Source of the DNA: a bacterium
GTDB taxonomy: Bacteria; Electryoneota; Electryoneia; Electryoneales; Electryoneaceae
Length of the DNA: 64,000 nucleotides
Assembly (NCBI GenBank): GCA_020444265.1
Contig: JAHLLH010000003.1
Span: 1 to 64,000, forward strand
Direction: 5' to 3'
Below the pieces are notes generated by a model that was not told the origin of the DNA, ran no database searches, and was given only the letters and a program-made list of their open reading frames with translations. Of this stretch, positions 43,626 through 54,383 are shown one piece after another (position 1 is the first letter of the stretch; the number at the start of each line of letters is the position of its first letter). A program made the translations under genes and the position numbers.

Positions 43626-43631
43626 GAATAA

Positions 43632-43677
43632 TATATCAGAAAGATATATATTGATTATACTGTATCAAGAAGATATA
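43632..43677 (+). promoter_or_regulatory. Twin operator over the padR promoter
   Basis: Two 17-bp sites of the same design: TATATC-AGAAA-GATATA (43632-43648) and TGTATC-AAGAA-GATATA (43661-43677), 29 bp apart centre to centre. Between them lies TATACT (43656-43661), a good -10 hexamer whose last base is the first of the second site. This arrangement suits autorepression by the PadR encoded 10 nt downstream. Confidence 0.6.
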
Positions 43678-43686
43678 GGAGCGGAA

Positions 43687-44232
43687 ATGAAGGGCGGTAA
43701 AACACGGTACGCGCTTTTGGGGTGGTTGAGTGTGAAACCGATGAGCGGGTACGATGTGAAAAGGCTGACTGAAGAGAACCTCAGCTTTTTCTGGGGAGGA
43801 AGCTTCGGCCAGATTTACCCCATCCTGCACGAGATGGCAGAGGCTGGGTTGGTGACAGTTCATGAGGAGAAGCAAGGGTCCTATCCAGCACGGAAGGTTT
43901 ACACGATTACCGAAGCAGGTCGAGCTGAGTTGACCGAGTGGTTGAGCGATCCCTCTTTCGAAGAATCCTTCCGAAGTGAACTGCTCTTGAAACTCTTCTT
44001 CAGCGCCGAAGTGGGTCCTGATCTAGCCATCGAGAAAGTGAAGAAAGCGCGAGACGAATCGAAGCAACTGTTGCAGCAGTACCGGGGGATTGAGGAACAA
44101 TTGTCGAATTCGTCTGACCCGGGTCAGGTTTACTTCTGGTTAACCCTCGACATGGGCAGACGAGTGGAACAGGCGGTGTTGGAGTGGAGCCAATCAGCAC
44201 TGCAGATCCTGGAGGGATTGAACGATGCATAA
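43687..44232 (+). CDS. PadR family transcriptional regulator
   Basis: 181 residues from ATG 43687 (AGGAG upstream). The winged helix is clear: TRYALLGWLSVKPMSGYDVKR, SFGQIYPILHEMAEAGLVTV and RKVYTITEAGRAELTEWL. The long C-terminal helical domain (~95-181, VIR4-like) is the dimerisation/ligand region of PadR subfamily 1. It ends 8 nt inside the TonB-receptor gene, so the two are coupled, and probably controls that operon through the twin sites just upstream. Confidence 0.9.
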   Translation: MKGGKTRYALLGWLSVKPMSGYDVKRLTEENLSFFWGGSFGQIYPILHEMAEAGLVTVHEEKQGSYPARKVYTITEAGRAELTEWLSDPSFEESFRSELLLKLFFSAEVGPDLAIEKVKKARDESKQLLQQYRGIEEQLSNSSDPGQVYFWLTLDMGRRVEQAVLEWSQSALQILEGLNDA

Positions 44233-46696
44233 CTCACTGCCTGCATCCCGGACCCTGAATCTCCTGTTGATTATTCTGCTCTTCCTGCTTCCGCTTACCT
44301 TGAGTGCTGCAGATGCAGTGATTCAGGCAGAGGGGCAATTGAGGGGAGTTGTGCTTGACAAAACAACACGTGAACCAATCCCCTCGGCGAACATTGTCCT
44401 TGAGGGAGAGGGGCGCGGCACAGCGGCTGATCTGGAAGGCAGATTTGAGATCCAACATCTTGTTCCGGGTACCTACCACCTCCGTGCCAGCGCACTCGGC
44501 TACGGAGTGCAGGAAATCAGCGAATTGCTTGTCCTGCCGGGTCGTGAGCGCAAGGTCGAATTTCTGCTTCAACCCACCGCCGTGGTTGGTGAAGAAGTGA
44601 CTGTCACTGCCTCCAAAGTGAAGAGTGTTTCTGCCAACCTGCCGACCTCGGCACGTTCCCTTCGCTACGAGGAGGTCCGTCGTTCACCCGGTGCGACCGA
44701 GGATGTACAACGGATGATTCAGAGCCTGCCGGGTGTCGCGGGTGAGAGCGATCAGAACAACGAGATCGTGGTTCGTGGCGGCAGTCCGTTCGAGAACCTG
44801 ATTGTCCTCGATGGAATCGAAGTGGAGAACCTGAATCACTTCGGCTACCCGGCCGGGACCGGTGGGCCAATCAGTGCGTTAAATGCCGAGTTCCTGCAGG
44901 AGGTAACCTTTGCGTCCGGTGGTTTTTCGGCACGTTATGGCGACAAGCTTTCCAGCGTACTCGACCTGAACCTTCGTGAGGGGAGCCGTGAAGGGATCGG
45001 CGGCAGCGCTGATTTCAACATGGCTGGTGTTGGCGGCAGTCTGGAGGGACCGTGGCCGGGAAAACGAGGCAGCTACCTGATCTCCTACCACAAGTCCTAC
45101 CTCGACCTTGTAAATGATGCCGTTGGTCTGACGGCGATCCCGCAGTATTGGAATGCGCAGGGGAAATTCACCTACGACATCAGCAACCGTCACCTCCTCT
45201 CGCTCAACACACTCTACGCAGACGATTCGATCAACATCGAGGATGAATCAGGCTACAGCCGCGGCGCGCAGAAGGTGGACAACGCCAACAGCAAGTTCCT
45301 GCTCGGAGGTCGTCTACGCAGCCTGTGGGGGCCCGGTTACACCGATCTCGTCGTAGCTCGAACGCGCAACAATTTTATGGTGGATGTGTTCAGGGTGGAT
45401 AGCACTGATGCGGGGGAACGTGTCGTCTGGCCGTGGGTCTACCAGGAGTACAACGAGACAACGTGGCAGACGAGCCTGAGCTGGACCGGCAAGGCGAGGC
45501 GTGCGGATGAGTGGTCCATCGGAGCAGGTATCAAACCAATTCGTTTTGAACGTCAGCAGCGGGTTGGGCCCGATACCACAATCTTCAATGACGGATACCT
45601 CACTTACCAGGGGCCGCCCGATGGCATTCCAGACACCCTCGTCCACATTCCGCAGGAGATTCACCGAAGCACGACCGCCATGAAAACGTCCGGGTTTGTT
45701 CAGTATGTCTGGCGTCCCTCGAACCTGATGACTATGGTCGGAGGGGTGCGCTACGATGGCTTCGAGATCTCCGGTCAGCACACCTTTGCGCCGCGCTTCT
45801 CGATCCAGTACCTGATCCACTCCGATTGGCGCGCAGGTCTGGCTCTTGGACGATATTACCAGGCCCAGCCAACGATTATCTACTCGGACGATCCGAACGG
45901 GGCGAACGAATCTCTTGCGCATTCCCATGCGGACCAATTTGTCGCCAGCCTCGCCTGGTTCCCGGTTCCCTCGACTCATTTTACCGCAGAAGCCTACTTC
46001 AAGCAGTACAGCGATCTGTTGGTCAGTGAAGAGGCGGTGGTTCGTGAGACGACAGGGGATTACACGTTCAACAGCGAACGCTATTTCACGCAACGAGAAA
46101 AAAAGGCGTGGGGTTTCGAGCTCTTTGCCCATCGCAGGCTGACGGGTGCCTGGTATGGCACACTTAGCTACTCGTACGGTCATGCAAAAGCGGAAGATCC
46201 GGCCTACGGTGAGTTTGATGCTGCCTACGATTTCCGTCAAGTTCTGACCGGTGTGATCGGCTACAGGATGAATCTCAGTCGAAGAAAGGGCTACAAGGAT
46301 CTGCTGGAGAAGCCGGTGATTGGCGGCATCCTGAAAGTGCTGCCGATCAATGGAGATGATTTGATCTTCTCCTCACGGTACCGCTACATCTCCGGACGAC
46401 CCTATACGAACCAGGTCTGGTTCGGTGAAGGAGAAGTCAGTCCACGACCCATCTATGAGGGCCACTGGGAACATGTGGGCGTGAACAACCGTCGCTACCC
46501 CGCCTATTTGAGATGGGACCTGCGTGTGGATAACAAACATTACTTCGGTGGCAGCGCGTTGACCTTCTACATGGAGGCCCAGAACGTGCTGGATCGTGGC
46601 AATGTCGCCGAGTATGCGTATGCGGATGATGGTGAGATTGATACGGTTTACCAGTTCCGCTTCTTCTTCGTTGGTGGTGTGAAGTACGAGTTTTAA
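44225..46696 (+). CDS. TonB-dependent outer-membrane receptor with CarboxypepD_reg domain
   Basis: 823 residues. Signal peptide, then a carboxypeptidase regulatory-like domain (~38-118: GVVLDKTTREPIPSANIVLE, GRFEIQHLVPGTYHLRA). A plug domain follows (~125-250: DVQRMIQSLPGVAGESDQNN, EIVVRGGSPFENLIVLDGIE, SGGFSARYGDKLSSVLD), and a 22-strand-type barrel to the terminal FFFVGGVKYEF. It imports an unknown ligand using TonB energy. The gene overlaps the PadR regulator and precedes, by 123 nt without a terminator, the hydrolase/flavoprotein/radical SAM genes, so its ligand may be linked to them. Confidence 0.92.
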   Translation: MHNSLPASRTLNLLLIILLFLLPLTLSAADAVIQAEGQLRGVVLDKTTREPIPSANIVLEGEGRGTAADLEGRFEIQHLVPGTYHLRASALGYGVQEISELLVLPGRERKVEFLLQPTAVVGEEVTVTASKVKSVSANLPTSARSLRYEEVRRSPGATEDVQRMIQSLPGVAGESDQNNEIVVRGGSPFENLIVLDGIEVENLNHFGYPAGTGGPISALNAEFLQEVTFASGGFSARYGDKLSSVLDLNLREGSREGIGGSADFNMAGVGGSLEGPWPGKRGSYLISYHKSYLDLVNDAVGLTAIPQYWNAQGKFTYDISNRHLLSLNTLYADDSINIEDESGYSRGAQKVDNANSKFLLGGRLRSLWGPGYTDLVVARTRNNFMVDVFRVDSTDAGERVVWPWVYQEYNETTWQTSLSWTGKARRADEWSIGAGIKPIRFERQQRVGPDTTIFNDGYLTYQGPPDGIPDTLVHIPQEIHRSTTAMKTSGFVQYVWRPSNLMTMVGGVRYDGFEISGQHTFAPRFSIQYLIHSDWRAGLALGRYYQAQPTIIYSDDPNGANESLAHSHADQFVASLAWFPVPSTHFTAEAYFKQYSDLLVSEEAVVRETTGDYTFNSERYFTQREKKAWGFELFAHRRLTGAWYGTLSYSYGHAKAEDPAYGEFDAAYDFRQVLTGVIGYRMNLSRRKGYKDLLEKPVIGGILKVLPINGDDLIFSSRYRYISGRPYTNQVWFGEGEVSPRPIYEGHWEHVGVNNRRYPAYLRWDLRVDNKHYFGGSALTFYMEAQNVLDRGNVAEYAYADDGEIDTVYQFRFFFVGGVKYEF

Positions 46697-46819: not shown

Positions 46820-47473
46820 TTGCGTCAGCCATACTTCACAGAGGCTACTCTTCGTCCGGTTACGGATGAGCTGTACGAGCAGCATGTAAACAAACATCAC
46901 ACGGTGGATGACTTTCGACCAGAACACTCAGCCTTGCTGGTTCTGGACTGTCAACAGTATTTCTTCCACCCTGATTCACATGCCTTTGCCCCGAGTGCGC
47001 CTCCCATTCTCGGCGGAATCCTCGACATGATCGATGAGTTTCAGCAAAGGGAACGTCCGGTCATATTGACTCGCCATGAAAACACGCTGGAAAATGCCGG
47101 CAGGATGGCTTCATGGTGGCGTGATCTTCTGACCGCAGACCACCCCTTCGCGGCTCTACTGCCTGAACTTGAGGAACGGCACCTCGATACAATCCGAAAA
47201 ACTCAGTATGATGCCTTTTTGAACAGCGATTTGGATGCTCGACTACGCTCCGCTGGAGTCCAACAAGTCGTTGTAACAGGCGTGTTGACCCACCTATGCT
47301 GTGAGACCACTGCTCGTTCAGCCTTCATGCATGGGTACGACGTTTTCTTCCCTGTTGATGGGACCGCAACCTATTCGATTGACTACCATCGCGGTAGTCT
47401 CAAAAACCTTGCCCATGCCTGCGCGAGCCTGACTCGAATGAGCGACCTGCTCCATCGGATGGAGAAGATATGA
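46820..47473 (+). CDS. Isochorismatase-like cysteine hydrolase
   Basis: 217 residues from TTG 46820 (AAGGGGG 4-5 nt upstream); an ATG at 46739 would add unconserved residues. The cysteine-hydrolase triad is present: Asp in ALLVLDCQQYF, Lys in IRKTQYDAFLNSDLD, and Cys in VVTGVLTHLCCETTARSAFM. Family members include isochorismatase, nicotinamidase and N-carbamoylsarcosine amidase; the substrate is unknown. The stop overlaps the next gene by 4 nt. First of a tightly coupled three-gene set. Confidence 0.85.
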   Translation: MRQPYFTEATLRPVTDELYEQHVNKHHTVDDFRPEHSALLVLDCQQYFFHPDSHAFAPSAPPILGGILDMIDEFQQRERPVILTRHENTLENAGRMASWWRDLLTADHPFAALLPELEERHLDTIRKTQYDAFLNSDLDARLRSAGVQQVVVTGVLTHLCCETTARSAFMHGYDVFFPVDGTATYSIDYHRGSLKNLAHACASLTRMSDLLHRMEKI

Positions 47474-48360
47474 CCGACACAATTGTGATCGTTGGGGGTG
47501 GACCGGCGGGGATTACAGCGGCGATTCAGTTAAAACGGCTTGGACGGTCTGTGATACTCGTTGAGTCCGGCCGTCTGGGTGGCATGCTGTGGGAAGCGAA
47601 TTTAGTAGAGAATTATCCCGGTTTCCCAAAGGGAATCCAGGGCCCTCGTCTCGCCCGGTTGATGGAACGGCACGTGAAGGAACTGGGCATTGAAGTGATA
47701 CAGCATCACGTCGCAAAAGCCGGGTATTCAGCGGGCCGTTTTGCGCTCAAATTGTCCAATGGACAAACCACTCTCGGCACCATTCTTGTCCTGGCCACAG
47801 GGACTGTCCCGGGGACATGGGAAATGCCTCGGATATCCGGCGATGTCGACCAGATGATCCATCGGGAGATCACCCCTCTGCTTTCCCTGGACGGAAAGCA
47901 GATTGCGGTTATTGGTAGTGGGGACGCTGCGTTCGACTATGCCCTCAATTTGTCGCAGAATAACACGGTCCAGTTGGGCACTCGAACGGAGGGTGAGAAG
48001 AGTCTGCAACTGTTGCGGGATCGTGTTGAAGAATCGAACTCCATTACCTGGAATAAAGGGGCGTACCTTGGCAAAATCGAACGGCTTGAGGAGAAGCTCC
48101 GCTTGACCTGGATGGACACTGGGGGGACGTGGACAACCGATGTTGATGCCCTTGTCGCTGCTGTGGGACGGGTTGCGAACAATCGTCTCTATGAGGGTTT
48201 GTCGGCGGAATTACGTGAACGGTTGCTGGAAGAGGGCAAGTTGCATCTGATCGGTGATGTGGTGAATGGTGTGGAACGTCAGACCGCTATTGCCGTTGGG
48301 GACGGGATGAACGTCGCGATGAAAATTGAGCGACAGTTGACGAGGGAGCGTGTTGAGTGA
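47470..48360 (+). CDS. Thioredoxin-reductase-like flavoprotein without the redox CxxC (FNR-type)
   Basis: 296 residues. FAD-binding VIVGGGPAGITAAIQLKRLG, TrxR-type LGGMLWEANLVENYPGFP, the ATG loop LVLATGTVPG, a second Rossmann fold IAVIGSGDAAFDYALNLS for NAD(P)H, and C-terminal LIGDVVNGVERQTAIAVGDG. The CATC-type disulfide expected just before the second Rossmann fold is replaced by DQMIHREITPLL. TrxR-fold proteins lacking this pair include bacterial ferredoxin/flavodoxin-NADP reductases, so electron delivery to the downstream radical SAM enzyme is plausible. Overlaps both neighbours by 4 nt. Confidence 0.85.
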   Translation: MTDTIVIVGGGPAGITAAIQLKRLGRSVILVESGRLGGMLWEANLVENYPGFPKGIQGPRLARLMERHVKELGIEVIQHHVAKAGYSAGRFALKLSNGQTTLGTILVLATGTVPGTWEMPRISGDVDQMIHREITPLLSLDGKQIAVIGSGDAAFDYALNLSQNNTVQLGTRTEGEKSLQLLRDRVEESNSITWNKGAYLGKIERLEEKLRLTWMDTGGTWTTDVDALVAAVGRVANNRLYEGLSAELRERLLEEGKLHLIGDVVNGVERQTAIAVGDGMNVAMKIERQLTRERVE

Positions 48361-49298
48361 AGGTTGTCCAGCGGGCAGGAAATCCAGACGTGGCGATGGT
48401 CTATATCGCCCAAATGGATTCCGGTCACAAGATTGAGTTTGTTGAATCAGTTGAGCCCCCCATCCCTCGTGATACAAAATGGGTCAACATTCTCTCCACC
48501 CTTCACGGCTGCCCGGTTCGCTGTGCATTTTGTGATGCCGGTCTTCGTTACAAAGGGAAGCTTTCCGCTCAAGAGATGCTCGATCAAATCGATTACATGG
48601 TCGGACGTAGGTACCCTTCGAAATCCATCCCCTGTGAGAAATGGAAAATTCAGTTTGCACGGATGGGAGATCCCGCCTTCAACCGAGCTGTGATGGACGT
48701 CCTCCGCGACCTGCCACAGCGCTATGATGCACCCGGGTTGTTCCCCTCAATTTCGACCATTGCGCCATGTGGCTGCGATCGATTCTTTGAAGAGTTGATC
48801 AACGTAAAGCATGAGCTTTATCCCGAACGGTTCCAGTTCCAGTTTTCGCTTCACTCTTCAAAGGAGGCGACCCGTAAGCGGTTGATTCCTGTTGACACAT
48901 GGAGCTTTGTTGAGATGGCGGAGTATGCGGAACGTCTCTACTCGGGAGTCGGAAGGAAACCATCCCTCAACTTTGCCTTGATGCAGGGTGTCGAAGTCGA
49001 TCCAGTTGTCTTGCGGAACTCATTTTCCCCGGACCTCTTTGTGATCAAGTTGACCCCGCTCAATCCGACTTGCCAGTCGGAGGACAATCGCCTCAACTCG
49101 CTCTACAAACAGGAGGATGAGTGGAACAGGACGGTGGAGCGGTTGCGATCAGTTGGTTATACGGTGATTGTGAGTGTGGGCGAACTGGAAGAGAATGCCA
49201 TCGGCAGCAACTGCGGGCAGTACATCCAGGCCCTCGAGGGGAATGGAGAGAAGCCTGAGGGGTCATACTGCTATGCTATCGAAACCGAACCCGTTTAA
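48357..49298 (+). CDS. RlmN/Cfr-like radical SAM enzyme, divergent and N-terminally short
   Basis: 313 residues, starting with GTG that overlaps the preceding stop. STLHGCPVRCAFCDAGL holds the CxxxCxxC cluster motif. Further blocks align with RlmN: ARMGDPAFNRAVMD (RlmN MGEPLLN), FSLHSSKEATRKRLIPVD (SLHAPNDEIRDEIVPIN), VIKLTPLNPTC (INLIPWNP) and SNCGQYIQ (AACGQL). The last keeps the methyl-carrying cysteine (E. coli C355). The position of E. coli C118, seven residues before the first cluster cysteine, is Ile. The ~90-residue N-terminal RNA-binding domain of RlmN is absent. The substrate is therefore probably not the standard 23S/tRNA site. Confidence 0.85.
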   Translation: MKVVQRAGNPDVAMVYIAQMDSGHKIEFVESVEPPIPRDTKWVNILSTLHGCPVRCAFCDAGLRYKGKLSAQEMLDQIDYMVGRRYPSKSIPCEKWKIQFARMGDPAFNRAVMDVLRDLPQRYDAPGLFPSISTIAPCGCDRFFEELINVKHELYPERFQFQFSLHSSKEATRKRLIPVDTWSFVEMAEYAERLYSGVGRKPSLNFALMQGVEVDPVVLRNSFSPDLFVIKLTPLNPTCQSEDNRLNSLYKQEDEWNRTVERLRSVGYTVIVSVGELEENAIGSNCGQYIQALEGNGEKPEGSYCYAIETEPV

Positions 49299-50144: not shown

Positions 50145-50627
50145 TTATTTCGCGGGCATGGTCATCGCCCAGGGGAGAGGTTTGACCTCGACCTGTTCCT
50201 CGACCTTGTGATCGGGGATGGGTTCATCAGCCCAGACCAGAGCGCCGGTGGGGCAGACCTTGGCGCAAGCAGGGTCGCCGCCACAAGTGTCACACTTGAC
50301 AATCTCCTCGTACTGCTCGTCGAAGTGGATGTTGCCGAAGGGGCAAGCGACCGTACACATCTTGCAGAGGATGCATTTGTCGGTCCGTTCAATTGCGCCG
50401 GTTTCCGGGTTGCGTTCCAGTGCACCCGTCGGACAGACCATCTGGCAGGCCGCTTCCTCACACTGCAAACAGAGGACGACCGATTTGACCTCGTTTTTAA
50501 GCGTGTAGGCACGCACACGAGTCAGTGCCGGGTGACGCGGGTCTTTTGTGTGCACAAAGCTGCAGGCGACTTCACAGTTTTTGCAGTCGGTGCAGCGATA
50601 AGGTGTCACAAACAGTCGTTTCGCCAT
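50145..50627 (-). CDS. Four-cluster ferredoxin (HycB/CooF-like electron-transfer subunit)
   Basis: 160 residues from ATG 50627 (GAGGG 5 nt upstream). Four CxxCxxC...C-type groups bind up to four [4Fe-4S] clusters: CTDCKNCEVAC, CLQCEEAACQMVCP, CILCKMCTVACP and CDTCGGDPACAKVCP. This is the DMSO-reductase/hydrogenase electron-transfer subunit family. No partner catalytic subunit is adjacent, so it probably serves as a shared carrier for the oxidoreductase genes upstream on the same strand. The last gene before the terminator. Confidence 0.9.
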   Translation of the reverse strand: MAKRLFVTPYRCTDCKNCEVACSFVHTKDPRHPALTRVRAYTLKNEVKSVVLCLQCEEAACQMVCPTGALERNPETGAIERTDKCILCKMCTVACPFGNIHFDEQYEEIVKCDTCGGDPACAKVCPTGALVWADEPIPDHKVEEQVEVKPLPWAMTMPAK

Positions 50628-50649
50628 CGTATCCCTCGACATCGATATG

Positions 50650-50786
50650 TCTGGCCCGGGCAATCTTGTTGCCCGGGTTTCTTCACGTTATTTTCTGCGT
50701 CAAGACCTTTTACCGATTCAGCCCTGACTGCTTTTTCGCACCTTGGGCGCGATGTGTGTGTCAGATCTGAGGATCTGACACAACGG
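50650..50786. repeat. Palindromic repeats between LOG gene and polyferredoxin
   Basis: Contains CCCGGGCAATCTTGTTGCCCGGG (50656 region; arms CCCGGGCAA/TTGCCCGGG) and a partial GATCTGA-family copy (50741-50786) with GTGTCAGATC-TGAG-GATCTGACAC. Confidence 0.75.
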
Positions 50787-50789
50787 TAA

Positions 50790-51380
50790 CTACACTTCAT
50801 CCTTGCCAAACCACTTGTTCGGCAATGCAGGCGGTTGGTAGGTCGCGAGATACTCGGGTACCTGTTCGACTCTCTCCACCACCTTGAACACTCGAAGCAC
50901 ATCCATCTTGATGAAGCGCTTCTCAATCATCTCGTCAAAGAGTTCGAACAGCCGTTCGTAATAGCCTTCCAGATTGACCACCACAATCGGCTTGGCATGC
51001 TGCTTCAGCGACTTCAGCACCGCCTGTTCTAGCATTTCTTCCATCGTGCCGATGGAACCGGGAAGGGCGATAAAAGCATCCGCCTTCGCTGCGATGGTCG
51101 CCTTGCGGGTCTTCATGTCAGGAGTGACAATCATCTCCTCGACATGCTCGCTGGCGATCCCACGTGCCACCAGCATCTCAGGCACCACTCCAATGGATCG
51201 TCCGCCTGCGGCTTTCACCGTCTCGGCTAGATGCCCCATCAGCCCAACACTCGCACCGCCAAAGATCATCTCCCAACCATGCTCGCCGATAATCCGGCCA
51301 AGTTTGCGTGCGCCGTTGACATAGATCTCATCAATCGCATCGCTGGAGGAACAGAAGACAGCTACTCGTCGAATCTCCAT
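50790..51380 (-). CDS. LOG family protein (putative nucleotide phosphoribohydrolase)
   Basis: 196 residues. LOG/Rossmann motifs: VAVFCSSSDAIDEIY, MIFGGASVGLMGHLAETVKAAGG, DMKTRKATIAAKADAFIALPG. The usual PGGxGTxxE reads PGSIGTMEE, with Ser for the second Gly, but the catalytic Glu and Arg of MxxRK are kept. Family enzymes release free base from nucleoside 5'-monophosphates. It sits inside the redox gene block between repeat arrays, with no obvious functional link. Confidence 0.88.
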   Translation of the reverse strand: MEIRRVAVFCSSSDAIDEIYVNGARKLGRIIGEHGWEMIFGGASVGLMGHLAETVKAAGGRSIGVVPEMLVARGIASEHVEEMIVTPDMKTRKATIAAKADAFIALPGSIGTMEEMLEQAVLKSLKQHAKPIVVVNLEGYYERLFELFDEMIEKRFIKMDVLRVFKVVERVEQVPEYLATYQPPALPNKWFGKDEV

Positions 51381-51429
51381 CGGATCCCCGTCTGTCCCCC
51401 ATTCTATTGCGCTGCTTGTTTCGCTTCCC

Positions 51430-51580
51430 GTTCCGTCAGGTCCTAAGCGTAGCGGAGACCTGACGGTTCTATCGCGCCTTCGGCGCGAATGGTGTGTCAG
51501 ATCTGAGGATCTGACACAACTTCAAATGCGGTCGATGGACTTCGCCCATCCTCGCCTGATTCGGAGAATCCGGCCTACAG
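51430..51580. repeat. Palindromic repeat array, GATCTGA family copy 4 plus CCGGATTC-type module
   Basis: 51430-51520 repeats the order TCAGGTC...GACCTGA, GCGCCTTCGGCGC, TGTCAGATC-TGAG-GATCTGACA. 51528-51580 continues with GCGGTCGATGGACTTCGCCC and ATTCGGAGAATCCGGCCTAC, which resembles the 55770 region. Confidence 0.8.
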
Positions 51581-51581
51581 C

Positions 51582-52349
51582 TTAATCAAACATCACCCGC
51601 GCAAAGCTCGCCGCGGTTTCTTTTTTACGTGTTGCATCCGACTTGGTGAAATAGTCTTCCGGCAGGCCGGACTGCTTCGAGAAGTGGGCAATCTGTTCGG
51701 GTGTGGCGATCGGCTTTTTATTGACCGGGTCGAGCACCACCTCGAAGGTCTTGTCCCAGATCGTCCGCATGTTGCCCTCTTCGATGTACTCAATCGCATT
51801 GGTTGGGCAGGTCAGCGCGCAGGCGAGGCAGCCGATGCAGGCATCCTTGTTCGGCACATCGACATACTTCTCCGGACCACGGCTCAGAGTCGAAATCGCA
51901 TGCGCACCGATGGCGTCGCAGACACGGACACAGAGCCCGCACATGATGCAGTCGTCCGCATCTTCGCGTTTCTCGTACGAGGTGTCATGGATGCCGTACT
52001 CTGCGGCGAGTTGACGGATCACATCGCTGTTCGGGACACGAGCAAGCTGCAGGTCGAGGACCACCTTGCGGTTCTCCATCACCTCTGGGGAACGTGTCTC
52101 GACAATCAGCCCCTCCTCAACAGGGAATAAGCAGGAGGTGACGAGTTGTTTCCAGTCCGGGGTCCAGTTGTGCTTGCGAATTTCTACCACACAGAGACGG
52201 CAGGCGCCGAAGGCTTCTACGCCGGGATGGTAGCAGAGGCTCGGGATGTCAATGTTGTGCTGACGTGCCGCTTCCAGGACCGTCTGGCCGACCGGTGCAT
52301 CGATCGAACGCCCGTCAATCGTGATCCGAACTGTCTTTGTCTCGCTCAT
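51582..52349 (-). CDS. HoxU/NuoG-N-like iron-sulfur subunit
   Basis: 255 residues. The N-terminal [2Fe-2S] domain has SLCYHPGVEAFGACRLCVVE and LVTSCLFP. The region where NuoG/HoxU carry HxxxCxxCxxxxxC instead reads LARVPNSDVIRQLAAEYG, so that cluster appears lost. Two [4Fe-4S] motifs follow: CIMCGLCVRVCD and CIGCLACALTCP. The ~70-residue C terminus has no cysteine. It is the third subunit of a NuoE-NuoF-HoxU-like diaphorase module, but no hydrogenase gene is nearby; the KOR genes lie upstream on the same strand. Confidence 0.88.
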   Translation of the reverse strand: MSETKTVRITIDGRSIDAPVGQTVLEAARQHNIDIPSLCYHPGVEAFGACRLCVVEIRKHNWTPDWKQLVTSCLFPVEEGLIVETRSPEVMENRKVVLDLQLARVPNSDVIRQLAAEYGIHDTSYEKREDADDCIMCGLCVRVCDAIGAHAISTLSRGPEKYVDVPNKDACIGCLACALTCPTNAIEYIEEGNMRTIWDKTFEVVLDPVNKKPIATPEQIAHFSKQSGLPEDYFTKSDATRKKETAASFARVMFD

Positions 52350-52372
52350 GCTCTTGCCTCATTTGGTCCGTT

Positions 52373-52430
52373 CCGCCAAGCTTTCCGACCTGGCGGAGTG
52401 TCTGTCAGGTCGGGAGACCTGACAGAACAG
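52373..52430. repeat. Twin hairpins between HoxU-like and NuoF-like genes
   Basis: CCGCCA...TGGCGG (52373-52396) and the perfect CTGTCAGGTC/GACCTGACAG (52402-52425). The second shares its TCAGGTC/GACCTGA core with the GATCTGA family. Confidence 0.7.
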
Positions 52431-52445
52431 TAAACCTCACTACTT

Positions 52446-54383
52446 TCAGGCCATCGCGGGTTCTTTACCCGCTACGATCTTCCCCTGGCTGATGATGTCC
52501 ACGCTGTCGAACTTGCAGACATTCCGACATATGCCACAGGAAATGCACTTGTCATCGTCAATCACATGCAACTTCTTCCGTTCGCCCGTGATCGCCTCGG
52601 TCGGGCAGTGACGCAGACAGACCATGCAGCCGGTGCAGGAATCGTTGATGTGGAAGTTGATCAACTCTTTGCAGACACCGCCTCGGCAGAACTTATCGTG
52701 GATGTGTTCCTCATACTCCTCGCGGAAGAACCGCAGGGTCGACAGGACCGGGAAGGGAGCGCCTTTGCCGAGTGCACAGAGGCTGGCCACTTCCATCGTG
52801 TGGCAGAGCTTCTCGATCAGTTCGATGTCGCCCTCACGACCCTCGCCCTTGGTAATCCGGTCGAGGATCTGGTAGACCTGCTTCAGACCTTCGCGGCAGG
52901 GGACGCACTTCCCGCAGCTCTCATCGCTGAGGAACTTGATGAAGTACTTGGCGACATCGACCATGCAGGTCTGATCGTCCATGACAATCATCCCGCCGGA
53001 GCCCATCATGGCCCCTTCACGGGTCAACGTATCAAAATCGACCGGAAGGTCGAGCTTGTCTGCGGGCAGGCAGCCGCCGGAAGGACCACCGGTCTGCACG
53101 GCTTTGAAGGGACGGTCATCGATGATGCCGCCGCCGATATCGTAGATGATCTCACGCAGGGTACGGCCCATCGGCACTTCGACCAGGCCGGTCTGCTTCA
53201 CCTTACCGACCAGGCTGAAGACCTTGGTGCCCTTCGACTTGGCGGTACCCATCGAGGAGAACCAGTCCGCGCCTCGGCTGATGATTGAGGGGACACAGGC
53301 GTAGGTTTCGACATTGTTCAGTACCGTCGGCTCGTCCTTGAAGCCCTTCTCGACACTGCGTACGTACTTCGCACGCGGTTCGCCGACTTTGCCCTCGAGG
53401 GAACGCATCAAGGCGGAGGATTCACCACAGACAAAGGCGCCGCCACCGCGTGACAACTTCAGGTTGAAGTTGAGGCCGCTGCCGAGGATGTTTTCGCCCA
53501 GCAGGCCCAAGGCCTTCATGTTCTCGATGGCCATTGTCAGGTGTTTGACCGCCAGCGGGTACTCATGGCGGACATAGATGTAGCCATCCGTCGCACCGAG
53601 CCCATATGCCGCGATCAGCATGCCTTCGATGACGGTGTAGGGGTCCGAGTCCATGATGACACGGTCCATGAACGCGCCGGGATCGCCCTCGTCGCCGTTG
53701 CAGACGAGCCAGACACGGTCCTGCTTGACCCTCAGGGCGCTCTTCCATTTGCGTCCCGTCGGGAATCCCGCACCACCACGTCCACGCAACCCGGACTCAT
53801 CCACCGCATCGACTACCTCTTCCGGGGTCATTGTGGTGAGCGCTTTGACCAATCCCTTGAAGCCATCGTTCAGCAGGAAGTCTTCGAAATTGGTCGGGTC
53901 GATGGTGCCGACATTCTTCAGCGCGATCCGGTTCTGGAGAGCGTAGAAGGGGATGTCGGAGTGATGCTTCGCCTTTTCGCCGCCCTTGGTGAAGTCGAGG
54001 CTGTAGAGCAGTTCCTTGACCGGTTCACCTTCGAGCAGGGTGGTTTCGACGATGGACTTGGCATGCTTCGGTTTGACATGGGTGTAGAAAATTTCCATCG
54101 GCTCGAGGATGACCAGAGGGCCCGCCTCGCACATACCATGGCAACCGGTACATTTTTCGATCAGACTCGTACCAACCGTCAACCCGGCTTTTTTCAGCTG
54201 GGGAGCGTGCGCATCGAGTTCCTTCTGCAGCTCGTCACGAAACTCCAGCGCGCCACCGGCGACACAGGATGGACCTGCGCAGATACGGACTTCGAGCTTA
54301 CGGGAGTCACGGTCTTTTTTCACCTTCTCGGCATAGTCGAGCAAGGATTTCGGGGTCTTGAATGCTTTTGGCCGCTTGATCAT
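52446..54383 (-). CDS. NuoF/HydB-like NAD(H)-binding flavoprotein subunit
   Basis: 645 residues, longer than NuoF. The N-terminal thioredoxin-like [2Fe-2S] domain (~30-125) has CAGPSC and CTGCHGMC. The FMN/NADH core shows GLRGRGGAGFPTGRKW, CNGDEGDPGAFMDR and GGGAFVCGESSALMRSLEG. The N3-type [4Fe-4S] site is ESCGKCVPCREG with LCALGKGAP. Two C-terminal ferredoxin clusters are CTGCMVCLRHCP and CISCGICRNVC. This is the layout of bifurcating HydB/HndC/Bfu flavoproteins. It overlaps the NuoE-like gene by 4 nt. Confidence 0.93.
   Translation of the reverse strand: MIKRPKAFKTPKSLLDYAEKVKKDRDSRKLEVRICAGPSCVAGGALEFRDELQKELDAHAPQLKKAGLTVGTSLIEKCTGCHGMCEAGPLVILEPMEIFYTHVKPKHAKSIVETTLLEGEPVKELLYSLDFTKGGEKAKHHSDIPFYALQNRIALKNVGTIDPTNFEDFLLNDGFKGLVKALTTMTPEEVVDAVDESGLRGRGGAGFPTGRKWKSALRVKQDRVWLVCNGDEGDPGAFMDRVIMDSDPYTVIEGMLIAAYGLGATDGYIYVRHEYPLAVKHLTMAIENMKALGLLGENILGSGLNFNLKLSRGGGAFVCGESSALMRSLEGKVGEPRAKYVRSVEKGFKDEPTVLNNVETYACVPSIISRGADWFSSMGTAKSKGTKVFSLVGKVKQTGLVEVPMGRTLREIIYDIGGGIIDDRPFKAVQTGGPSGGCLPADKLDLPVDFDTLTREGAMMGSGGMIVMDDQTCMVDVAKYFIKFLSDESCGKCVPCREGLKQVYQILDRITKGEGREGDIELIEKLCHTMEVASLCALGKGAPFPVLSTLRFFREEYEEHIHDKFCRGGVCKELINFHINDSCTGCMVCLRHCPTEAITGERKKLHVIDDDKCISCGICRNVCKFDSVDIISQGKIVAGKEPAMA

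Follow-up and report, generated by a model that had tools for sequence, protein, structure and literature searches.

Three overlapping genes in a 64,000-nucleotide stretch of bacterial DNA (referred to as the window here, meaning the whole stretch analyzed) are very likely to make up a so far unexplored metabolic unit centered on an altered relative of a ribosome-methylating enzyme, given that they keep the same order in very distant bacteria, including Thermotoga maritima. All three lie on the forward strand. The first (positions 46820 to 47473, TTG start) encodes Ico, an isochorismatase-fold cysteine hydrolase of 217 amino acids; the second (47470 to 48360) encodes Flv, a thioredoxin reductase (TrxR)-like FAD/NAD(P) flavoprotein of 296 amino acids that lacks the CxxC disulfide; and the third (48357 to 49298, GTG start) encodes an RlmN/Cfr-related radical SAM protein of 313 amino acids, called rSAM here. 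Stop and start codons overlap by 4 nucleotides at both forward-strand junctions, as read from the sequence: ATGA between Ico and Flv (47470 to 47473) and GTGA between Flv and rSAM (48357 to 48360). The Ico start at 46820 is preceded by AGGGGG, and Ico relatives start at the same point (MKxxYF). The gene order and overlaps are thus as described in a first-pass annotation of the window, and the identities it proposed for the three proteins agree with their Pfam and NCBIfam assignments.

We read 104 loci encoding rSAM, from at least six phylum-level groups. Flv is encoded directly upstream of rSAM and on the same strand in 102 of the 103 testable loci (102 of the 104 read); of the two loci without an upstream Flv, one is cut by a contig end and the other is a true exception. 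In 77 of about 99 loci, the gene immediately before flv encodes Ico, and among the 25 loci without an adjacent Ico, three are cut by contig ends and two have an Ico gene nearby on the opposite strand. The Flv-rSAM pair is the core of the unit and Ico is an optional partner; with about a quarter of the loci lacking an adjacent Ico, this protein may be dispensable or replaced. Overlap or near-overlap of the genes is usual across the loci, and no fusions among the three partners were found in the 104 loci. The gene neighborhood search suggested in the first-pass annotation therefore shows that the homologs do co-occur, and the Flv-rSAM order bears out a fixed-order unit conserved across many phyla.

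In the home phylum of the window, rSAM is present in 18 of 39 genomes (the window itself left out), at 45 to 61% identity. A profile search for Flv set a top class of matches clearly apart from the rest, and these matches fall in precisely the same 18 of 39 genomes, each time adjacent to rSAM; one copy is frameshifted and another is truncated by a contig end. Tree distances over 57 loci are correlated between the partners (r = 0.73 for rSAM-Flv, 0.76 for rSAM-Ico, and 0.87 for Flv-Ico), while the maximum reached in 2,000 permutations was 0.24. This shows that the genes are inherited as a block, with a contribution from shared species history.

The unit extends far beyond the home phylum. A broader sample of 386 genomes yielded 26 further carriers outside it, from about 20 families, and phylum-level searches around four of those carriers found rSAM in 45 of 103, 8 of 10, 7 of 14, and 33 of 42 genomes; in a two-genome phylum, one of the two carries it. 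The named-genome collection contained a single relative, in “Candidatus Neomarinimicrobiota” (JABMPO010000394.1). No relatives on phage contigs were found, and a plasmid search returned only weak RlmN-like matches. Among the phyla searched, the one with 103 genomes is very probably Thermotogota. Beside one copy (locus L124) lies a trpF gene whose protein matches PDB entries 1LBM/1NSJ, from T. maritima, at each of its 205 residues. Between flv and the rSAM gene, T. maritima has a TnpB gene of the IS605 type (L124:4519-5763), and in other Thermotoga a gene for a metallo-beta-lactamase-fold hydrolase (L123:6350-6922) sits at the same position. The rSAM gene is broken, in pieces with stops, in genome G443 of the Thermotogota-like phylum (locus L161), so the system can be lost.

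Around the loci, no neighbor outside the triplet is shared, so that the wider context gives no pointer to a pathway. A function from individual neighbors (aspartate/ornithine carbamoyltransferase-like genes, adenylosuccinate lyase, PTH, flagellar genes, or RecG) was considered and rejected, as their adjacency looks incidental. In one family (loci L042 to L045), where Ico is absent, the Flv-rSAM pair is flanked by PyrK-like and PyrD genes, with IMPDH and Sir2 genes further up; this placement, too, looks incidental.

The rSAM protein matches RlmN and Cfr models at E values of about 1e-11, and yet the window protein scores only 29 bits against an RlmN cutoff of 290 and 43 bits against a Cfr cutoff of 550 (NCBIfam equivalogs), with its relatives likewise below. 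Identity within the family ranges from 37 to 100% (median, 50%), compared with 17 to 26% to RlmN, and in a FastTree phylogeny the family is monophyletic (local support, 0.905) on a long stem. Its AlphaFold model has a mean pLDDT of only 60; a Foldseek search with this low-confidence model gave RlmN for all of the top four matches. To place individual residues, a profile of 19 members was aligned to the RlmN and Cfr PDB structures with hmmsearch. C52, C56, and C59 align with the cysteines of the [4Fe-4S] cluster (CxxxCxxC motif) and C286 with the methyl-accepting cysteine (RlmN C355, Cfr C338), and all four are invariant in 83 of 83 members. The resolving cysteine (RlmN C118, Cfr C105), in contrast, aligns with I45, a position occupied by Ile in 67 of the 83 members, Val in 6, Met in 5, Leu in 2, and Thr, Cys, and Ser in 1 each.

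With RlmN (the C2-methylase of 23S rRNA A2503 and tRNA A37), rSAM has in common the radical SAM core, CxxxCxxC, GEP, NP, and the C-terminal CG(Q), and the likenesses to Cfr (the C8-methylase of 23S rRNA A2503) are the same. Its SNCG motif is aligned with ACGQ, which accepts the methyl group. What sets rSAM apart from RlmN, besides its nearly constant pairing with Flv, is the loss of the resolving cysteine, also absent relative to Cfr, and of the N-terminal helical RNA-binding domain: the window protein begins at position 70 of the RlmN profile, and the family has a median length of 314 amino acids versus 326 to 364 for RlmN open reading frames. An invariant DAG follows the cluster where RlmN has ATG. 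Furthermore, K97, Q99, R102, N205, and K231 are found in 83 of 83 members, at positions where RlmN of the home phylum has N, V, G, E (in 4 of 5), and N, respectively, and Q162 replaces an alanine. From the alignment, we infer that Lys97, Arg102, and Lys231 line the active site. True RlmN proteins of the home phylum, including one in the window’s own genome, keep C118, ATG, and AACGQLA. By these sequence criteria rSAM is a distinct family, and it is probably not an RlmN-type RNA methylase, given that C118 and the N-terminal domain have been lost and Lys97, Arg102, and Lys231 gained at positions held by neutral residues in RlmN.

The main clues to its chemistry, absent from the first-pass annotation, are the loss of the C118 equivalent while that of C355 is kept, the loss of the N-terminal domain, and the Lys/Arg switches. 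In RlmN, the methyl group that turns into the radical and the covalent link is borne by C355, resolution of the adduct requires C118, and the one-electron donor for the closing step of the cycle is described as unidentified (PMC9692996). Cfr without its methylated cysteine barely cleaves SAM (PMC3702613). With the C355 equivalent kept and C118 lost, the family has the loading side of the class A machinery but lacks the unloading side as it is known.

Flv matches Pyr_redox_2 and TrxR-like models (E = 2e-20 and 5e-36, respectively) and, by phmmer, TrxR structures, but reaches only 124 bits against a TrxR cutoff of 343. The FAD/NAD(P) domains and motifs that it has in common with thioredoxin reductase and the TrxR-like ferredoxin-NADP reductases are kept (GxGxxG and GAGDAAFDYA), whereas the redox-active CxxC of the NADPH domain of thioredoxin reductase is absent. 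As the first-pass annotation had it, the window protein is a TrxR-fold flavoprotein without this motif, which is also absent from 80 of 81 relatives, the remaining one containing a single such string, which may lie outside the active site. Its sequence is less conserved than that of rSAM, and its structure model has a mean pLDDT of 44.

Ico belongs to the isochorismatase family (PF00857, E = 1e-36), and the nearest solved structures are EntB, VibB, and cysteine hydrolases. Its catalytic residues D43 (55/55), K127 (57/57), and C160 (57/57) are invariant among the Ico proteins of the gene triad that cover each position, as are H86 (57/57) and R166. The Asp-Lys-Cys triad, the fold, and the GVxTHLCxExTAR motif are common to Ico and the isochorismatase-fold cysteine hydrolases (EntB/VibB, RutB, and the biuret and N-carbamoylsarcosine amidohydrolases). 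Unlike them, Ico falls below every equivalog cutoff and forms a group of its own linked to Flv-rSAM, and EntB has Gly in place of the catalytic Cys. Ico proteins of the triad separate with a support of 1.0 from a clade of standalone paralogs. These paralogs (L112 to L120), which have no adjoining Flv-rSAM, are common in the home phylum and also occur in genomes without the triplet.

Taking these features together, the most likely reading, with chances of about even, is that Ico, Flv, and rSAM form a conserved enzyme module for one metabolic transformation, acting on a small, probably anionic substrate, with Flv as the dedicated reductant. In such a module, Flv would take hydride from NAD(P)H and pass single electrons, directly or via ferredoxin, to the rSAM cluster and/or, as the cycle ends, to a radical on the cysteine or the substrate. 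Cys286 of rSAM, which by homology to RlmN and Cfr is probably methylated by one SAM, would add a one-carbon unit to the small substrate, whose negative charges could be held by the invariant Lys97, Arg102, and Lys231. Release from Cys286 would then need another base or reduction through Flv, the C118 route being absent. Finally, like related enzymes, Ico may hydrolyze a bond of the amide, ureido, or enol-ether type, either in the precursor or in the product.

Other readings of the triplet place rSAM or Flv differently; they are not mutually exclusive. One is that rSAM is a second RlmN-like methylase acting on another adenosine or RNA, with Flv and Ico providing electrons and an accessory step. 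Even though RlmN and Cfr come out first for it by profile and by fold and the CG motif equivalent to RlmN C355 is invariant, we regard this as improbable: rSAM lacks C118 and the N-terminal helical domain, the base-pocket positions differ, the phylum and the window’s own genome already have a normal RlmN (with C118 and AACGQLA), and a dedicated amidohydrolase has no obvious use to an RNA methylase. Another is that Cys286 stays unmethylated and serves as hydrogen-atom donor to a radical on the substrate, which would make rSAM a radical epimerase, lyase, or reductase; Flv would re-reduce the cysteine or the cluster or reduce an intermediate. Other radical SAM enzymes offer examples of a single cysteine acting as hydrogen donor, and the loss of C118 in 82 of 83 members blocks the known course of the RlmN methyl-transfer cycle. 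However, the alignment of SNCG with the methyl-accepting motif and the otherwise intact class A core speak for a methylated cysteine, and we consider hydrogen donation rather unlikely. A third reading concerns one step only, namely, that Flv carries out its own redox reaction on the pathway substrate while a general ferredoxin or flavodoxin serves rSAM. TrxR-fold proteins do perform many substrate redox reactions, Flv has no iron-sulfur cluster and would have to switch from two- to one-electron chemistry, and its sequence is conserved less than that of rSAM. The near-obligate partner of Flv being rSAM rather than Ico speaks against this role for Flv, which is a serious contender but one that we hold to be somewhat doubtful.

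The genes upstream raise the question of whether the unit is larger. A PadR gene (43687 to 44232) and a gene for a TonB-dependent receptor with CarboxypepD_reg and Plug domains (44225 to 46696) overlap by 8 nucleotides (44225 to 44232) and are co-oriented with the triplet. Two operator-like repeats of 21 nucleotides, 81% identical, precede PadR (43628 to 43648 and 43657 to 43677) and are probably its autoregulatory site; their core is TATC-N5-GATATA, with the copies 29 nucleotides apart. The first-pass annotation had placed PadR, with its twin operators, and the receptor upstream of the triplet without an intervening terminator. This description stands, in that no terminator-like site was found between the TonB gene and the triplet, and such an arrangement would suit a single regulated operon for uptake and metabolism running from PadR to rSAM. 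Their membership in the system does not stand: PadR/TonB homologs adjoin none of the 104 other copies, and a gap of 123 nucleotides separates the TonB gene from Ico, which places the pair outside the conserved unit and makes the single operon very unlikely. Among the loci compared, the PadR-receptor pair is confined to the window genome. The OsmC and repair genes of the window do not recur at the other loci either; the gene downstream of the triplet, on the opposite strand, is DNA-alkylation-repair-like. Further on, genes for a 4Fe-4S ferredoxin-like protein and for NADH-dehydrogenase/hydrogenase-like flavin and iron-sulfur subunits (50145 to 54383, reverse strand) suggest an anaerobic lifestyle. 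No Rfam elements were found. An anti-phage defense system was rejected, as PADLOC models gave no match for Ico, rSAM, or PadR and, for Flv, nothing beyond a short, generic match to the FAD motif.

Returning to the Ico-Flv-rSAM module, no description of this gene set and, in line with the first-pass annotation, no named pathway with this combination was found in the open-license literature; the module is real, broad, and apparently undescribed. RNA methylation is, to our knowledge, the only known role of class A radical SAM enzymes. At its core, the module has a class A-like family that is without one of the features defining class A and has fixed partners. Put at its boldest, and only tentatively, an RlmN-fold enzyme may have moved off RNA to add a carbon to a small anionic metabolite through a single methyl-cysteine, with no resolving cysteine; an NAD(P)H flavoprotein of its own would turn it over, and a dedicated amidohydrolase would take part, in a pathway of biosynthesis or salvage that is ancient, undescribed, and found in bacteria that include Thermotoga. 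A large natural family, with a median identity of 50% across phyla, in which the methyl-carrier cysteine stays, C118 is gone, and a flavoprotein has become a fixed partner makes two questions testable, namely, what the reductant of class A-type enzymes is and how much further the scope of methyl-cysteine chemistry extends. The Thermotogota copies, including those of T. maritima and its relatives, are a source of heat-stable proteins. The conservation of the triplet suggests that a metabolite or pathway is missing from current maps.
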